DNA from: a virus | Length of the DNA stretch: 30,767 nucleotides | Direction: 5' to 3' (one strand) | IMG/VR virus record: IMGVR_UViG_3300035670_000932 | Location: 1 to 30,767 of that record | Part shown: piece by piece, positions 3,878 to 13,337 of the stretch | Position numbering within the stretch: the stretch's first letter is position 1 | Layout of the letters: each line of letters starts with the position of its first letter | The notes under the pieces: generated by a model | The model's database searches: none | What the model was told of the DNA's origin: nothing | The model's input: only the letters and a program-made list of their open reading frames with translations | Translations under genes and position numbers: made by a program

Positions 3878-4786
3878 TCACTCAGTCACAGCGGGCTCGC
3901 CCGCCTCGGTCTCGATCGCGGCGATCCGCGCCGTGATCTGGTCGGTCAGTCGCGACCACTCGTCGCCGGTCAACTGCCCGGCAGAGACGTAGCCATCGAT
4001 CGCCCTGGTCGCCTTCGTGAGATCCGCCTGGGTGCTCGCCTTGGCGATGAAGGCGGCAGCCTGCGTCGCCTTCTCGCTGGGCGGCTTCGCGGCTGGGGTG
4101 CCGCCCGCCAGCCACTCGGCAAAAGCCTCGCCGGTCTCCACGCTGATCGGCTTGGGATCTCCGCCGAAGATGCCTGTGCGATCCTTACTCGCGACGGCGA
4201 AGTGCCCGTCGTGAACGATGTCGAGAACGGTCGTGAACTCGTACTCCGCACCGTCGCGGCTTTCGAGTTTCATGCCGAGCTTGACCACCTTCTTTCGCCC
4301 GTGGTCATCGACCTGCGCCGTCTCCGTTTTTGCCCGGCCGGTAGCGATGATGTGTGCCGAACTGCGGAGCATCCGGTCGATGAAAGCCCGGTGACGCGGC
4401 GTGAGCTCGGACCACGCCGACCATGTGTTGCCCTTGAACTTCGCCCGTGCGATCTCGTCCACGAGCTCCAGGCAGCCGCCCTTGCCGTTCCACTCGTGGC
4501 TGATTGAGTCGATCACGATGCAGTCGGCCCCGGCCGCCTCTGCGGCGTCGATCGCCTCGATGTACGACTCGGGCGTGAACGGCGGCGAGAGGTCGATCAC
4601 ATCGAATTCGTGCAGCCGATCGTAGAGATCGCTCGAACCCTGCTCGGTGTCGATGACGATCGTCCGCTGTGAGCCGAGACCCTTCGCCACAAGCAGACCG
4701 CCGTAGGTCTTGCCGCTGCCGCTAGGGCCGGTGAGCAGGAGCCGCAACTTCGTAGCACTGCGGCGTGCTTTTCTGATCTGAACCAT
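3878..4786 (-). CDS. RecA/Sak4-like P-loop ATPase, phage recombination
   Basis: 302 residues. Walker A is GPSGSGKT (20-27), followed by IVIDTEQGSSDLY (about 43-55), and Walker B is CIVIDSISHEW (about 89-99). This matches the phage AAA/RecA-core 'nucleotide-binding' ATPases, including Sak4-type recombinases, that promote strand annealing or exchange. The C-terminal 80 residues are Ala-rich and helical, probably regulatory or oligomerising. The SSB-like gene follows 39 nt downstream. The ATG at 4786 has an AAAGG Shine-Dalgarno within the leader type used by neighbouring cassettes. Confidence 0.82.
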   Translation of the reverse strand: MVQIRKARRSATKLRLLLTGPSGSGKTYGGLLVAKGLGSQRTIVIDTEQGSSDLYDRLHEFDVIDLSPPFTPESYIEAIDAAEAAGADCIVIDSISHEWNGKGGCLELVDEIARAKFKGNTWSAWSELTPRHRAFIDRMLRSSAHIIATGRAKTETAQVDDHGRKKVVKLGMKLESRDGAEYEFTTVLDIVHDGHFAVASKDRTGIFGGDPKPISVETGEAFAEWLAGGTPAAKPPSEKATQAAAFIAKASTQADLTKATRAIDGYVSAGQLTGDEWSRLTDQITARIAAIETEAGEPAVTE

Positions 4787-4815
4787 GTTCTGTTGCCTTT
4801 CTTTTGAGGTGTTTT

Positions 4816-5253
4816 TCAGTTCATCGCGTCGCCGTTCATGTCACGCCACGAGCCAACGGGCTCTTTCGTCTGCGTCGCAATAGCCTCGACCGCCGTCGCG
4901 ATCCGTTCGACCTCCGCGACCAGCGACATCTGGCTCGTCGCCAACGCCGAGAGAACTGCGGTCAGGGCAGCGATCGCGTTGTCGGCGGATGCCGCGACCG
5001 AGACAGGCTCGGGCTCCGACAACTTCGCCGCCTCGGCGAGCACGGTTTGAGCGAGGTACTGCTTCGCAGAATCCGCGTGAACGTAGACACGGCCACGATC
5101 GCCGCCGGTTTGCAATCCCGGAATCTTCCGCTGCCGAAACGCCTCGCGGAGTTGCTTGTACTCCGGGGAATGCCCGTCTCCACGACCCCGGCTTCGGTAA
5201 TCAAAATCCGCCAGCGGCACGAAACCAGCCGGCATCCATTCGCTCGTGTCCAT
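4816..5253 (-). CDS. Probable DNA-binding protein (winged-helix-like) with helical C-terminus
   Basis: 145 residues. Residues 31-66 (YKQLREAFRQRKIPG, then GRVYVHADSAKQYL) resemble the short winged-helix fold of AlpA/excisionase-like proteins, with a recognition helix, a turn and a 'VYV' wing. The C-terminal half is an Ala/Val/Ile-rich amphipathic helix (residues about 85-130), probably for self-association. The gene has the recurring leader ACGAAAGGGA before its ATG and lies just upstream of the Sak4-like ATPase gene. It may regulate transcription or bind DNA in replication; undecided. Confidence 0.65.
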   Translation of the reverse strand: MDTSEWMPAGFVPLADFDYRSRGRGDGHSPEYKQLREAFRQRKIPGLQTGGDRGRVYVHADSAKQYLAQTVLAEAAKLSEPEPVSVAASADNAIAALTAVLSALATSQMSLVAEVERIATAVEAIATQTKEPVGSWRDMNGDAMN

Positions 5254-5365: not shown

Positions 5366-5743
5366 TCACCAGCCCTCGCCGTAGCGGGCCTGCATCGCGT
5401 TGTCGTAGGCGTCTTCGCAGCCCGCCTTGCGAGCCGCGCAGGCGTGGTGGCTGCCCGGCTTCGCGGGCGTGGTCAGCGGCTCGACCGGGCGGCAGGGCTC
5501 GACCACCTGCTCAAGCTCTTCCAGGTACATCAGCAACCGCCCCTCGGCGGTGTCCACGAGGTACGCGTCAGTGCGGAGGCCGCTCGGGCTGCGTTCCTGC
5601 TCGGCGATCACGCCGTCCTGGTAGCCGCCACCAAACGCCTTCGGGCACCGCACGCGGTCGCCGGGCTTCGGGCGGTAGACGGTGCCGTAGAAATCAGCGA
5701 TAGCGGCTTCGGCGGCGGCGGCTTCGCGGTGGTGGGCATCCAT
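5366..5743 (-). CDS. Unknown protein: SH3/KOW-like domain plus CEDAYDN module
   Basis: 125 residues. The N-terminal helix (REAAAAEAAIADFYG) is followed by a beta-barrel-like region (KPGDRVRCPKAFGGGYQDG, then AYLVDTAEGRLLMY) suggesting an SH3/KOW-type fold. The last 45 residues repeat those of the protein at 2924-3181 (EPLTTPA..GSHH; AGCEDAYDN; ARYGEGW). The ATG at 5743 has AGGGA upstream. It is the first gene behind the promoter-bearing gap 5744-5927. Function unknown. Confidence 0.75.
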   Translation of the reverse strand: MDAHHREAAAAEAAIADFYGTVYRPKPGDRVRCPKAFGGGYQDGVIAEQERSPSGLRTDAYLVDTAEGRLLMYLEELEQVVEPCRPVEPLTTPAKPGSHHACAARKAGCEDAYDNAMQARYGEGW

Positions 5744-5789
5744 GCATTCGACTCCCTTCGAGGTGCGGAACTGATCGTCTGTCCATCAG

Positions 5790-5813
5790 TGGGGGGGCGT
5801 ATCCTACCCCCCA
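5790..5813. repeat. G6/C6 hairpin in the leader before 5743
   Basis: TGGGGGG (5790-5796), 10-nt loop, CCCCCCA (5807-5813), flanked by CATCAGT on both sides (5784-5790 and 5812-5818). The loop overlaps the -10 box of the candidate promoter at 5801-5828. May be a regulatory or replication-related structure. Confidence 0.45.
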
Positions 5814-5828
5814 TCAGTCATCGGTCAA
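5801..5828 (-). promoter_or_regulatory. Second candidate promoter before the 5743 gene
   Basis: TTGACC (5828-5823), 16-nt spacer, TAGGAT (5806-5801). Start would be near 5794, about 50 nt before the ATG at 5743. No operator core within it. The initial transcript would carry a GGGGGG/CCCCCC-rich leader (5790-5813). Confidence 0.45.
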
Positions 5829-8506: not shown

Positions 8507-9622
8507 GTGGAAAACGCAACCTTGGCGTCGGTTCTTGAGGATGACTACTCGCCGCTGCGGGGGCTCAAGCCAAAAGCACTAGCTCAGTTTCGGCTTTCGC
8601 TCGCCCGCTTCAGAGAACATCTCGGGCACGAGCCGACAATTCTGGATCTGACGGGGGTGACGGTGCAGCGATTTCTCTCCGCGAGGAAGGCGCGGGTCTC
8701 GGTCGCGACCGCATTGAAGGACCGCACCCACCTCGCTGCCCTATGGAATCACCTTTTTCGGCTGCGTCGCGTCGAGGTGGCCCCGGCCGCCGTCCTTCCG
8801 CCCATGCGAGCCCCGCGTCGGGTGCCTCGGGCGTACCGCGACCACGAGGTATCCGCAATCCTGCGGGAGTGTCTCGCCACGCTGGGCGGCATCGACGGCC
8901 GCCCAGCGTCCATCTGGCACGCCTCGCTCGTGCGGGCCGCGTTCGAGACGGCGGAACGCGTGGGAGCCCTCTTGCAGGTCGAATGGCGGGATGTCGATCT
9001 GCACGAGCGAACGATTCTCCTGCGAGCCGAGACCCGCAAGGGTGCCCATGCAGACCTTTTGCGGCCGATCTCGGCGGAAACGGCCGCCTGGATCGCCCAG
9101 CTACGGCGGGATGCAGGCGACCGGCGGCGGGTCTGGAACTGGGATCGATACCCGTCGCACCTCTGGCACCACTTCCGAGCCATCTGCAAGCGGGCCGGCG
9201 TCCAGTGCCGGGGCTACCATGGCCTGCGGAGGGCAGCCGCCTCCTACATCGCGGCGGCCGGCGGGCTCGGGGAAGCCGCGACCGCCCTCGGTCACGCCTC
9301 GCCCACCACGACCCAGCAGCACTACGTCGATCAGACGATCGCGAAACCGAGCCGCAGCCACCTCGATATGCTGCCGCACCTCGATCTCGGGCAGGAACCC
9401 AGCAACCCCGTAGCAGACGCCCAAGAATCCGCCCTGCGGGCTGGTCGGCAGGCGGGCCGTGATCTAGCCGCCCGAGGGGAGCCGTGCCCGGCACGGGCTT
9501 CTATAGACGCTCTGGCGGCGGGGGCGGGGGTGCCGGCCGAAATGGTCGCCCACTACCGCCAGGGGCTCGTCGGAGGGTGGGCTGCAGGCCAGGAAGAGCC
9601 GCCGGCCGAGCCGGCGGCGTAG
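8507..9622 (+). CDS. int: Tyrosine recombinase / phage integrase
   Basis: 371 residues from a GTG with GGAGGG 6 nt upstream. An N-terminal SAM-like core-binding domain (about 20-95) precedes the catalytic domain (about 108-280). Catalytic residues visible: R151 (ETAERVGALL), K178 (RKGAH), H238 and R241 (HGLRR), H263 (LGHAS) and Y273 (QQHYVD). All are intact, so it should be active. About 90 residues follow the tyrosine, an Ala/Gly-rich tail longer than usual. It should integrate or excise the phage genome; the attachment site is not identifiable from this window alone. Confidence 0.93.
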   Translation: MENATLASVLEDDYSPLRGLKPKALAQFRLSLARFREHLGHEPTILDLTGVTVQRFLSARKARVSVATALKDRTHLAALWNHLFRLRRVEVAPAAVLPPMRAPRRVPRAYRDHEVSAILRECLATLGGIDGRPASIWHASLVRAAFETAERVGALLQVEWRDVDLHERTILLRAETRKGAHADLLRPISAETAAWIAQLRRDAGDRRRVWNWDRYPSHLWHHFRAICKRAGVQCRGYHGLRRAAASYIAAAGGLGEAATALGHASPTTTQQHYVDQTIAKPSRSHLDMLPHLDLGQEPSNPVADAQESALRAGRQAGRDLAARGEPCPARASIDALAAGAGVPAEMVAHYRQGLVGGWAAGQEEPPAEPAA

Positions 9623-10055: not shown

Positions 10056-10262
10056 TCATTCGGCGAAATACCCCAACGCGGGCAGCGGTCTCCGAATGTT
10101 CTCTCGCCGCGCCGCCTCGACTCTCAGCCGCCGCACCTCGAACAGAAGCCGCATCACATCCGCCGCGAGCGTGCCGCTCGTGCCAGTGTACGCCCCCGAG
10201 AACTGGCGTGCCCGTTGCTCGCACTCCGCGAGGTAAACGTCTGTCAGGGGCTCACGATCCAC
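10056..10262 (-). CDS. Small unknown protein, last gene of the structural operon
   Basis: 68 residues from a GTG at 10262 with GGAGG 6 nt upstream. It looks like one helical unit (LTDVYLAECEQRARQF, then TLAADVMRLLFEVRRLRVEA). It overlaps the preceding gene by 11 nt. It is the last minus-strand gene before the convergent hairpin. Similar small proteins occur near the end of phage late operons in my recollection, with no assigned function. Confidence 0.65.
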   Translation of the reverse strand: MDREPLTDVYLAECEQRARQFSGAYTGTSGTLAADVMRLLFEVRRLRVEAARRENIRRPLPALGYFAE

Positions 10263-10761
10263 GCCCCGCCTCCTCCATCTTGATTAGGCAAATGAGAGCC
10301 CAGTTCGCTGCATCGAGCAGAGCGTTCGTTGGATCGACTGGCTGCCCCTGGGCGTACTTCTGCATCCGCACGACGCAATCGCTGAGGTCGCACAGAGCCC
10401 GCCGCCACGGCTCCACGCCGCATTTGGCAGACGCGGTGACGTTCTCGAAAGCGTCATCGGCACCGCCGTATTGAGCCGTCTTCTCGTGGTGCAAGGCTCG
10501 CAGGCGGTCAAGGGCATCAAGCCACTCGTGGCTGCCGGCTGGCCCGCCGATCTGCTTCATCTCCATGCCGGCGGGCATGACCACCGTTCGCCCCATCAGC
10601 GAATCCCCACGCATCCGCGTGCCCTCGCAGCACGTCGGCTCGGGATCGCCCTGGTCGAGTTTGTAGCCGATCATCTTCGGGTCATCAGCCGGCGTCGCTG
10701 CCAGCCGCTCGCGAACCGCCTCTCGCATCGTCCTGCTCAGTTCTTCCACTGCTACGGTCAT
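10252..10761 (-). CDS. All-alpha NTP-pyrophosphohydrolase-like (DUF6378-type) protein
   Basis: 169 residues. The C-terminal 85 residues carry the pattern seen in phage DUF6378/DUF1599-like proteins: HHEKTAQYGGADDAFENV, then CDLSDCVVRMQKYAQG and DALLDAANWALICL-like acidic helices, suggesting a MazG-like nucleotide-binding bundle. The N-terminal half is less typical and contains a CCEGTR motif. The ATG at 10761 (AAAGGA upstream) still overlaps, as ATGA, the stop of the phosphoesterase stump (10758-10874). It may hydrolyse or sense nucleotides; not certain. Confidence 0.65.
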   Translation of the reverse strand: MTVAVEELSRTMREAVRERLAATPADDPKMIGYKLDQGDPEPTCCEGTRMRGDSLMGRTVVMPAGMEMKQIGGPAGSHEWLDALDRLRALHHEKTAQYGGADDAFENVTASAKCGVEPWRRALCDLSDCVVRMQKYAQGQPVDPTNALLDAANWALICLIKMEEAGRGS

Positions 10762-10874
10762 GTCGCTTCCTTTCTCGGTCCTGCTACGTGCGTGGCAATC
10801 ATTCCGCCGTCATGGGCGTAGATGAAAGTCTCCATTGCTTGTCTAGCGTTCAGAAATCCGAGGCGAACTATCCA
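10758..10874 (-). pseudogene. 3' stump of an older metallophosphoesterase gene
   Basis: This stretch, which looks like an intergenic gap, is open in one frame (codons 10874 to 10758). It encodes a peptide with GFLNARQAMETFIYAHDGG. The intact phosphoesterase ends with GFIGAEQAMQGFLYLPEGG in the same place, with a Trp six residues before the GF Phe in both. The stump's TGA overlaps the next start codon as ATGA, the coupling used throughout this operon. I read it as the original C-terminus, left behind when the HNH gene and a foreign phosphoesterase 3' end entered. Confidence 0.8.
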
Positions 10875-11671
10875 GCCGTGACAAGAGGAAGCCCTAGTGC
10901 ACGACGAGCCTCAGCAACACACGCCAACGTCCACTTCTGTCGCGGATCAACAACGAGAGAGTCGCCTTTTGAAAGGTTGTCCGATGCCCACACAGGACGA
11001 AGATTGAGGTAATGAAATGCAACCGCTTGCTGGGACGCGTCCGTAAGGTCGAATGCAGAGCATGGAACAATATGGTCGATGTGCCACAGATGCCTGTTGC
11101 TCCAGTTCATTCCAGGCAGAAACTGTGCCGCCACCCAAGACATCAAATCGCGGCGAGAGCACCCGACTAGCTTCACGGTGCTCTCGTGCTTTGCCGCTAG
11201 GTCGCGACGCAACGCTAGGTAGACTCTGTGGCGAAGCCTAGCAGTGATCGCGGCTTGCGGGTCAGACTTGAGTTTCTGCTTTGCCTTTTCCTTAACGATG
11301 TCGGCGTTCTTGTCTCGATACGCTTTGCACACAGTCAGGATGTGCTGTCTTTTCTTGGCATATCGCTCTCGCGACCACTGCTTGATAGCTTCCCGATTTT
11401 TTGCTTTGTGACTTGGGCCATACGCACGAAGGTAGGCAAGCCTTTCCGCTCGCTGCTCAGGAGTTTCGGATAGCAAACGCTTTTTGGCTCGCTCTCGCAT
11501 TCCCGCCAATCGCGACTCGCGCTGCGCAGGAGTCTCTGTATCTCGCTTCATTTTCGCGCGAGCATTTTCCTGAGCACGCCTTGCTGCCTTCTTGTCGGCA
11601 GGCATCGAAGCATAAGATGCCCTCCTGGCGGCAAGCTGCTCCTCCTTGGTCTTTTTTGCCTTCTTAGCCAT
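10868..11671 (-). CDS. HNH endonuclease, probable free-standing homing endonuclease
   Basis: 267 residues. The C-terminal nuclease domain carries WHIDHIVPCSAFDLTD (H197, D199, H200), then FHYLNLRPVW (N223) and DNLSKGD (N232), the HNH/His-Me-finger pattern of phage homing nucleases. The N-terminal 130 residues are Lys/Arg-rich helical repeats that probably contact DNA. The start overlaps the phosphoesterase stop by 8 nt. GC is near 48-50% in the lines I counted, against about 70% in neighbouring native genes, a sign of transfer. It likely cuts phosphoesterase alleles lacking the insert. Confidence 0.88.
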   Translation of the reverse strand: MAKKAKKTKEEQLAARRASYASMPADKKAARRAQENARAKMKRDTETPAQRESRLAGMRERAKKRLLSETPEQRAERLAYLRAYGPSHKAKNREAIKQWSRERYAKKRQHILTVCKAYRDKNADIVKEKAKQKLKSDPQAAITARLRHRVYLALRRDLAAKHESTVKLVGCSRRDLMSWVAAQFLPGMNWSNRHLWHIDHIVPCSAFDLTDASQQAVAFHYLNLRPVWASDNLSKGDSLVVDPRQKWTLACVAEARRALGLPLVTAG

Positions 11672-12836
11672 TGAGAGATTTCCTGTGGGCGTACGCCATT
11701 TGCATCTGAAATAGCCCGCCTTCTGGCAAGTACAGAAACCCCTGCATGGCTTGCTCCGCCCCTATGAATCCCATGTCAAAATGCCACGAATCCGGCGGGA
11801 CGATCGTGGGGTGCGTCCTTATCACTACCCCATCTATTGTACTGATCTCGGCGGCCTGATGGTGAAGATGCCCGACGTGCCATTCGCGATGCGTGCATTT
11901 TGCCCACTGTTCGGCGGCCTCAAGAGCCATGATGCCGGCCAACTTTTTCTTTCCCTTGTCTCCATGCGTGACTCCAAGCAGATTTTTGCCATTGGTCAGG
12001 TATTTCCGGCTTGTAAAATCGCTGTTCACTTTGATCCGCTTGTCGTTCCGGTATCGCTCAACAAGGATTTTTTGAAGTGCCCAAGTCATCGCGGAGTCAT
12101 GATTGCCAGGCACAATCACAACGTCTGTCTGAACGCTTTCGGCTGACTGTTCAACGGCACGAAAAATAGATTGCGAGGCGCAATCTATCGCCTTCTGAAT
12201 GCGAGAGTCTCGGTCAAGATATGTGCCGCCCGTAGTCGTGCCGGCAACTGTGTCAAAGTGCAAGGTGTCACCGGCCAAAACGATTGACCTGCGTACTGCA
12301 TCGCTGCTTCTGCTAATCAGGTCGGATGTTGTTCGTTCGATAATGTCGCCGGCTATCGTTATGTCATAGTCATTGCCGGTGGTCTGTCTCCATGATCGAG
12401 AGCCAATGTGAAGGTCGCTGACGACCAACACGCTCCAGAGCCCCGGCTTCGCCTTGCCGTGCCCCTTGACCGCCGGTCGCCGGATGTCGCGGGTTGCCGC
12501 CGCGATCATCGCCTCGACCGCCTCGGCAACGCTCGGCCCTGCCTTCGGTCGCAGCCGCACGAACACGCGGTGTAGCTCGGTGACGGTCGTGCCGCCCTCG
12601 CCGTCGCCCGAGGCACACTCCCATTTCGTCGCCTCGCTCGCGGCGATTTCGTAGCGGGTCATGTCCGCTTCAATGTGGGCGAGCAGATCCTCCACGGTCT
12701 TGATTCGCCGGCTAGTCGAGCGGGCTTCGAGCGTGTCTCCTTCCTGCCGCTGCGTCACCTGCTCGGCGGTAGCCGGCGGGCTTGAAGCGGGCAGGCTCGA
12801 CACGATCGCCGCTTTCAGTCCTGCTTTGACAGCCAT
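11664..12836 (-). CDS. Calcineurin-like metallophosphoesterase, mosaic gene
   Basis: 390 residues from the ATG at 12836; the longer frame upstream lies over the previous gene. Metal-binding motifs: VVSDLHIG (D141, H143), IVLAGDTLHFD, VIVPGNHD, THGDKG and VGHLHH. It should hydrolyse phosphodiesters, possibly as a nuclease; a 140-residue helical N-terminus precedes the catalytic domain. GC falls from about 70% to about 50% near 12420, just where the catalytic domain begins, so the gene is a mosaic of a native N-terminus and an imported catalytic domain. The older C-terminus survives as a stump at 10758-10874. Confidence 0.88.
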   Translation of the reverse strand: MAVKAGLKAAIVSSLPASSPPATAEQVTQRQEGDTLEARSTSRRIKTVEDLLAHIEADMTRYEIAASEATKWECASGDGEGGTTVTELHRVFVRLRPKAGPSVAEAVEAMIAAATRDIRRPAVKGHGKAKPGLWSVLVVSDLHIGSRSWRQTTGNDYDITIAGDIIERTTSDLISRSSDAVRRSIVLAGDTLHFDTVAGTTTGGTYLDRDSRIQKAIDCASQSIFRAVEQSAESVQTDVVIVPGNHDSAMTWALQKILVERYRNDKRIKVNSDFTSRKYLTNGKNLLGVTHGDKGKKKLAGIMALEAAEQWAKCTHREWHVGHLHHQAAEISTIDGVVIRTHPTIVPPDSWHFDMGFIGAEQAMQGFLYLPEGGLFQMQMAYAHRKSLNG

Positions 12837-13060
12837 TCGCGCATCCCCGCGAGTCTGCATGTGTCGATGCCACGCTGCCGACAGTTCTCCACGATCGAAA
12901 TCGCGAGCCCGCGAGCGGATGCTTGAATTAGCCCGGCGTGCCACTCGCGGCGAATCGCGAGCAACTCCTCGCGAACATCATCGGGGAGACGATCGATCCA
13001 CGTTGCGATGCGTGGCTTCGTCGTGATTGATGAAACGATCGCTGACCGGAGATCATTCAC
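12815..13060 (-). CDS. Small helical unknown protein
   Basis: 81 residues from a GTG at 13060 with AAGGAGGT (a full anti-Shine-Dalgarno match) 5 nt upstream. Helical and charged (RLPDDVREELLAIRREWHAG), with an end reading SIVENCRQRGIDTCRLAGMREWL. The REW/CRQRGI elements recur in small phage proteins of similar position in my memory, but I cannot name a family. It overlaps the preceding gene by 8 nt and the phosphoesterase start by 22 nt. Confidence 0.7.
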   Translation of the reverse strand: MNDLRSAIVSSITTKPRIATWIDRLPDDVREELLAIRREWHAGLIQASARGLAISIVENCRQRGIDTCRLAGMREWLSKQD

Positions 13061-13337
13061 GCGGCACCTCCTTGTAGCCCAGCATCACAAGCACCCTCCT
13101 CTGCACGCGGGCAAGCTCAGTCACCGCTTCCTCGCTGATCGACGGGCCGAGCACTGCGTGGGCGATCTCATGGAGCACGGTTTCCATCTTCTGCGAACCC
13201 TTGCATCGATCGTCTATGAGGATGCGGGGGCTCGTGGCGTTGTCGAAAAACGTCCACCCCATCGCGTCGCCCTTCAGCCGGGTGAACCGCAGGAGCCACC
13301 GCTTGCCGTCGATCGTGATGTGGTGGTCGTCCGCCAC
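13053..13337 (-). CDS. Mini zinc metallopeptidase-like (HExxH) protein
   Basis: 94 residues from a GTG at 13337 (AAAGGG 6 nt upstream). ETVLHEIAHAVLG (about 53-65) contains the HExxH zinc motif; a downstream helix (SEEAVTELARVQRRVL) has a Glu at the spacing used as third ligand in IrrE/ImmA or SprT-like folds. An N-terminal beta sheet (HHITIDGKRWLLRF) fits that fold. Much shorter than classic families. Position at the end of the tail module suggests processing of a virion or host protein; substrate unknown. Confidence 0.7.
   Translation of the reverse strand: MADDHHITIDGKRWLLRFTRLKGDAMGWTFFDNATSPRILIDDRCKGSQKMETVLHEIAHAVLGPSISEEAVTELARVQRRVLVMLGYKEVPRE

Follow-up and report, generated by a model that had tools for sequence, protein, structure and literature searches.

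A chimeric Mre11/SbcD-like exonuclease gene in an uncultured phage, with an adjoining HNH gene and a remnant of the replaced gene end

Genes at the exonuclease locus

The window analyzed here is the whole of a 30,767-base record from an uncultured virus, which carries terminase, head and tail genes, an integrase gene, and replication genes. An exonuclease gene, an HNH endonuclease gene, and a short stretch that we call the stump lie in a row between an upstream gene and the next gene (Table 1). Exonuclease residues are numbered from an in-frame GTG at 12944 and not from the ATG at 12836. The relatives used for comparison were 61 fetched phage contigs with related exonucleases, and individual contigs are given by L numbers.

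Table 1. Features of the exonuclease locus, in order of transcription
Feature	Position	Strand	Remarks
Upstream gene	13060-12815	minus	
Exonuclease gene	likely 12836-11664	minus	likely start is the ATG at 12836
Native (recipient) N-terminal half	12449-12836	minus	94% amino acid identity to L002, codons 60-168; third-position GC 0.85
Left recombination breakpoint	12434-12448	minus	codons 166-171 (KPGLW/S); placed by diagnostic sites
Foreign type B catalytic half	11664-12434	minus	own C-terminal hairpin and stop
HNH endonuclease gene	10868-11671	minus	267 amino acids
Right junction	10862-10868	minus	GTTCGCC, donor's old exonuclease tail; placed by comparison with L065, L067, L002, and L010
Stump	10758-10862	minus	last 34 codons and stop of the recipient's original exonuclease; 94% amino acid identity to the C termini of L002, L006, and L010
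Next gene, recipient backbone	10252-10761	minus	ATG overlaps the TGA of the stump

The exonuclease matched the profile of PHROG 704 (DNA repair exonuclease) with an E value of 3.2e-68 and that of Metallophos_2 at just above the cut-off. When a low-confidence model of the protein was submitted to Foldseek, the best match in the PDB was Mre11-Rad50 (E value, 3.9e-5). The metal motifs SDLH, GDTLHFD, GNHD, THGD, and GHLHH are found in the catalytic half. By its profile match and motifs, the protein is an Mre11/SbcD-like phage exonuclease with calcineurin-like metal motifs, and its activity is predicted accordingly.

A chimeric exonuclease and the end that it replaced

The two halves of the exonuclease were most similar to different relatives. 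Compared with L002, the protein was 94% identical across codons 60 to 168 and 48% identical across codons 182 to 392, whereas in comparison with L065 the N-terminal half was 68% and the catalytic half 80% identical. Used alone as the query, the catalytic half led to a second lineage, designated type B, at 68 to 80% identity, with L065 the closest (77 to 80% amino acid identity to L065 and L149). Diagnostic nucleotides were defined as those separating L002, L003, L004, and L006 (type A) from L065, L149, and L067 (type B). Before codon 170, 16 of 17 such sites were A-type and one was B-type; after it, 101 of 123 were B-type and 9 were A-type. The A-type sites end at codon 166 and the B-type sites begin at codon 171, and GGGCTCTGG at this breakpoint is common to the A-type contigs L003, L004, and L006 and the B-type contig L067. 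Since a structure model places the first catalytic strand at residues 170 to 176, the swap falls at a predicted domain boundary. Among 109 pairs of relatives with N-terminal halves at least 0.84 identical, 87 were concordant, with a median C-terminal-half identity of 0.99; the strongly discordant pairs involved the window and the L049/L051 group, plus a few milder cases.

An earlier note made from the window's letters placed a drop in GC near 12420, at VVSDLHIG. The drop was confirmed, with GC falling from about 0.70 to between 0.50 and 0.55 between 12.3 and 12.45 kb, staying low until about 10.85 kb, and then recovering, but the breakpoint lies just upstream of that position, at about codons 166 to 171 (12448-12434). 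Third-position GC, high in the native half (Table 1), is 0.59 in the catalytic half and 0.57 in the HNH gene. The HNH-free relatives, whose N-terminal halves and C termini are nearly identical to those of the window, do not share its low-GC catalytic half; theirs is type A, 48% identical to the window's, with a third-position GC of 0.79 to 0.81. The possibility that low GC is intrinsic to this catalytic half was rejected, because third-position GC in type B relatives ranges from 0.63 to 0.85.

Pairwise identities and diagnostic sites, on which the claim is based, confirm at the sequence level that the window exonuclease is a chimera of a native N-terminal half and a foreign type B catalytic half. 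In unrooted trees of the N-terminal half (107 to 111 codons, with AU tests) and in two-group DNA trees, the window fits at the base of either group. The chimeric enzyme is presumably functional. No exact donor was identified, the best match being 80% identical in amino acids. A search for the type B half in bacterial and archaeal genomes found none, and searching named phages for distant nucleotide similarity to the locus gave no match.

Behind the HNH gene, the minus-strand frame running from 10862 to 10758 is open and is translated as LGFLNARQAMETFIYAHDGGMIATHVAGPRKEAT, followed by a stop. The earlier note had described the gap at 10762 to 10867 as open in one frame and likened its product to the end of the intact exonuclease. 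The gap is open as described, on the minus strand, but the stump proper begins at 10862, and the resemblance is to the true C terminus of HNH-free relatives rather than to the window's own exonuclease end, to which the stump is only 41% identical. The exonucleases of L002, L006, and L010 end in LGFLNARQAMETFIYANDGGMIATHVAGPRKE, and the stump matches them at 94% over 34 amino acids (E value, about 4e-18); judged on sequence, this match is not due to chance. The TGA of the stump overlaps the start of the next gene as ATGA at 10761 to 10758, as the note had also observed, and the exonuclease TGA of L002, L006, and L010 overlaps the next gene in the same way. The close match to HNH-free C termini and the shared ATGA overlap together indicate that the stump is the old end of the exonuclease gene. 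The claim that the native N terminus and a C-terminal stump both remain was thus borne out at each end by 94% identity, to L002 and to native C termini, respectively.

Compared with L002, the stump is 88.6% identical in nucleotides, with a dN of 0.04 and a dS of 0.51, the changes being mostly synonymous. This low dN/dS, with the N-terminal half similar, suggests that the stump is recent. The sequence AGGAAG at 10771 to 10766, inside the stump, is the likely ribosome-binding site of the next gene. Homologues of that gene (43 to 44% identity) lie directly 3' of an intact exonuclease gene, with the same ATGA overlap, in L003, L004, L005, and L010. The stump preserves the start of that gene together with this likely ribosome-binding site, one reason why a right junction further downstream was not possible.

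At the right junction, the GTTCGCC that lies 3' of the HNH stop is donor tail, as seen in GTTCGCCGATGA of L065, and is followed by the recipient sequence CTCGGATTTCTGAACGC. Donor CGCC/GATGA and recipient GAGCC/T have only GCC in common (3 bp, 10864-10862). In L065, a type B exonuclease gene is followed at once by an HNH gene whose product is 50% identical to that of the window and ends in ITAGVRR and a stop with GTTCGCCGATGA, the next gene beginning at the ATGA there. The same lineage includes L067, which has no HNH gene and whose exonuclease ends in MAYVR and a stop with GTCCGATGA. Comparison of the occupied site of L065 with the empty site of L067 puts the HNH insertion immediately upstream of the final codons of the exonuclease gene. 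A search for the exact right-junction pattern in viral contigs gave no match, and the junction is present in one record only.

The HNH gene and its relatives

The HNH gene has its own start and stop, and its start overlaps the exonuclease stop by 8 bp. An active site, HIDH(200)...N(223)...N(232), is predicted from the sequence at the C terminus, and H200, N223, and N232 were invariant in the 14 relatives aligned. The N terminus matched STPR PF21107 (3.7e-10) through STPR-like helical repeats at residues 28 to 90 (11402-11590), and the match was found in 9 of 14 family members (the window and 8 others). STPR repeats are known from the silkworm DNA-binding protein FMBP-1 (PMC4821344), and the STPR-like N terminus is plausibly the DNA-recognition part of the HNH protein. 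Structure prediction was confident only for the helical N-terminal region, and the AlphaFold model of the HNH domain was poor.

Two other classifications were rejected. The protein matched PHROG endonuclease VII weakly (4.7e-7), which is its likeness to F-CphI and other Endo VII (DHHRN) homing endonucleases (PMC6083498). As defined in that paper, however, DHHRN enzymes have CX2-4C/CX2C zinc pairs and no central Asn, whereas in the window protein no CX2C pairs were seen and the central N223 is invariant. An intron or intein was rejected because the gene starts and stops on its own and no known RNA family was matched in an Rfam search of 10200 to 13100 at E values up to 1.

HNH relatives scoring above 190 bits, on contigs reaching that far, all adjoin the exonuclease locus, and most overlap the exonuclease stop codon. 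A second branch lies beyond the gene that follows the exonuclease (L029, 5811-6614; L078, 4037-4846). Counted over distinct exonucleases, an HNH gene is present at the 3' end of 13 of 29 type B genes, leaving 16 without one, and of 1 of 46 type A genes. Sites are empty in L067 and L049, and decayed HNH copies were found in L181 and L049. The comparison of L051 with L049 revealed a near-clean insertion: the HNH gene of L051 lies between GGCCC and GAGGCTGGACC, and its product ends in the old exonuclease tail, RLDRSAMT and a stop. Identity between these two contigs falls from 100% to 75% over the approximately 180 bp before the insertion, as in co-conversion. Behind the type B half and HNH gene of L149 and L182 is a second, independent type A stump, YRPEGGLSSMHVAGPTQ and a stop, with a different right junction.

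Several of these contigs show further rearrangements. In L181 (about 4755-4850, after the exonuclease stop), the HNH gene has been deleted, and the short remnant MTKKTHEPRERLGLIQHNSGARKWARAI joins both ends of the intact gene seen in L154. Downstream of the exonuclease in L049, at 5734 to 5823, lies a decayed copy of an L029-type HNH gene, reduced to an orphan C-terminal piece that is 93% identical over 30 amino acids. Compared with L035, L049 and L051 are 94 to 95% identical in the N-terminal half and about 60% in the catalytic half, with the swap at the same linker as in the window; L049 has kept a native tail of 6 codons, with no HNH gene at the junction.

An HNH motif, an optional presence at a conserved site, a location outside any intron or intein, and co-conversion of the flank, all of which characterize free-standing HNH homing endonucleases, were found for this family. 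In the window, the co-converted tract would be the whole catalytic half. The window gene is predicted to encode such an enzyme, and homing itself is most likely. The window, L065, and L149 formed a clade in both the HNH tree (97/95) and the catalytic-half tree (100/96). Across 12 loci, HNH distances correlated with those of the C-terminal half at a Mantel r of 0.89 and with those of the N-terminal half at 0.60. In type B phages, too, members of this HNH family lie at the 3' end of the exonuclease gene. The shared clade and the matching low third-position GC indicate that the HNH gene traveled with the catalytic half, and a shared arrival is the simplest reading of these sequences. Of the earlier proposal that both entered together by recombination at conserved codons, joint entry agrees with the trees; only the left junction looks homologous, the right one being a 3-bp microhomology.

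Origin of the chimera

Free-standing homing endonucleases cut alleles that lack them and are copied in with flanking sequence, and in T4 crosses with homology on one side only, microhomology junctions formed on the other side (PMC2988022). One-sided homing is the likely origin of the chimeric gene: a free-standing HNH endonuclease gene would have moved in with its left end joined by homology and its right end by microhomology. The donor would have been a lower-GC relative of L065 and L149 with the HNH gene at the end of its type B exonuclease gene, since this HNH family resides in the last codons of Mre11/SbcD-like phage exonuclease genes. The recipient would have been an L002-like phage whose type A exonuclease gene had no HNH gene at its end; when both phages infected one cell, the nuclease probably cleaved the recipient's exonuclease gene, and donor DNA would have served as the template for repair. 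We infer that HNH cleavage likely started the exchange, a candidate target being the type A sequence around the WHASLGFLNARQ codons or upstream of them. On the left, recombination would have used the conserved GLW of the linker that precedes the catalytic domain; on the right, where donor and recipient diverge, the ends would have been joined through 3 bp just upstream of the recipient LGFLNARQ codons. The recipient would thereby have gained the HNH gene along with a complete foreign catalytic half, its own final 34 codons surviving as a stump from which the next gene probably still draws its ribosome-binding site and ATGA start. Under homing, the stump is expected to be untranslated or barely translated. 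A feature of the stump argues against homing: it retains the HVAG/PR region, homologous to the insertion site, and this region might itself be cut if the nuclease does not recognize a sequence further upstream.

It is less likely, though a serious alternative, that ordinary phage mosaicism produced the locus, with the catalytic half and HNH gene moved as a block by homeologous and illegitimate recombination and the HNH gene a passenger. Stumps would then arise because the ribosome-binding site and start of the next gene, inside the exonuclease tail, must be kept. The L049 swap, made at the same linker with a native tail kept and no HNH gene at the junction, supports this account and indicates that such swaps need not involve the nuclease, although an HNH remnant lies downstream in L049, and HNH genes or their remnants also occur in the L049/L051 group. 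An HNH gene is missing from many type B genes, and the type label requires at least seven changes on the weakly resolved N-half tree, both of which also fit mosaicism. However, both chimeras with a stump reaching the folded C-terminal hairpin (the window and L149) carry an HNH gene, the insertion site is conserved, and the short divergent flank of L051 ends at the HNH gene.

An improbable alternative has two steps, in which the type B half was fused in frame to the old C terminus (...MAY-VR-LGFLNARQ...) and the HNH gene was inserted later between MAY and VR, severing the tail that is now the stump. GTT CGC CTC GGA TTT is in the frame of the stump, so that such a fusion is possible, but joining in frame has a one-in-three chance anyway. 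In nearest relatives and base composition, the HNH gene agrees with the catalytic half, and a separate later insertion would show this agreement only with a donor of the same kind.

Misassembly of two phages in the metagenome is very improbable. The contig is uncultured and its exact right junction is not found elsewhere, but an artifact would need two separate junctions, one with only a 3-bp overlap, while leaving the exonuclease frame intact; the middle block is close to no known contig (at most about 73% nucleotide identity over the exonuclease), and a like arrangement is present in L149 and L182, two IMG/VR records. Equally remote is a functional second polypeptide encoded by the stump, as in the split nrdA of Aeh1: few amino acid changes separate it from L002, and genes split by mobE and mobA insertions still work (PMC2988022), but the new exonuclease already ends in a complete hairpin and a stop, the stump lacks a good start, and a low dN equally fits a recent origin.

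One-sided homing resembles the spread of the T4-like free-standing homing endonuclease genes (SegF/gene 56, SegG/gene 32, and MobE/nrd), with their marker exclusion and co-conversion (PMC2988022). Those genes are also intron-free, lie beside a conserved gene, overlap the upstream stop by a few base pairs, are optional in relatives, and transfer flanking target sequence. In contrast, the window tract spans a whole catalytic domain, its other end was joined by microhomology, and the recipient C terminus remains as a duplicate. The T4 homing crosses of 1999, as described in PMC2988022, likewise combined one homologous side with one microhomology junction; they were laboratory crosses with an intron, whereas the window is a natural phage with a free-standing HNH gene. 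Homing endonuclease genes also mark the edges of transferred phage DNA in islands and at exchange boundaries (PMC10448857), but here the exchange lies within a single gene, at a domain boundary. The HNH endonucleases of Skunavirus are similarly optional, cluster by insertion site, and are proposed drivers of exchange (PMC12724721); they are described as I-HmuI-like, whereas the window protein has STPR-like repeats at its N terminus.

The process is thus of a known kind, of which the locus is an unusually clear natural example. In the collections and papers searched, what appears to be new is its whole-domain extent with a fossil of the replaced end. An HNH family with STPR-like DNA-binding repeats, placed recurrently in the last codons of a repair-nuclease gene, also appears not to be described in those papers. 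Both breakpoints and the fossil are footprints, readable in the sequence of a wild phage, of the exchange of an entire enzymatic domain, probably by homing. Because the relatives include chimeric alleles as well as occupied, empty, and decayed ones, the reshaping of neighboring genes by a homing endonuclease gene is directly testable. A further suggestion, tentative and on balance doubtful, is that the type B catalytic domain is co-adapted with the HNH gene in a selfish cassette, in which the nuclease spreads a version of the end-resecting, Mre11-like domain that it cannot cut. If so, the nuclease would attack the gene for the enzyme expected to process the resulting break, and one domain of a phage repair enzyme would behave as gene-drive cargo.

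Two observations concern other parts of the window. The integrase gene, at 8507 to 9622 on the plus strand, is on the strand opposite to the annotated phage genes, and its presence suggests a temperate phage. On the minus strand at 353 to 2745, two adjacent open reading frames match a phage DNA methyltransferase/helicase family (353-1336) and a helicase family (1315-2745); the first additionally matches the C-terminal part of a helicase profile, and the two may be one split or frameshifted gene.
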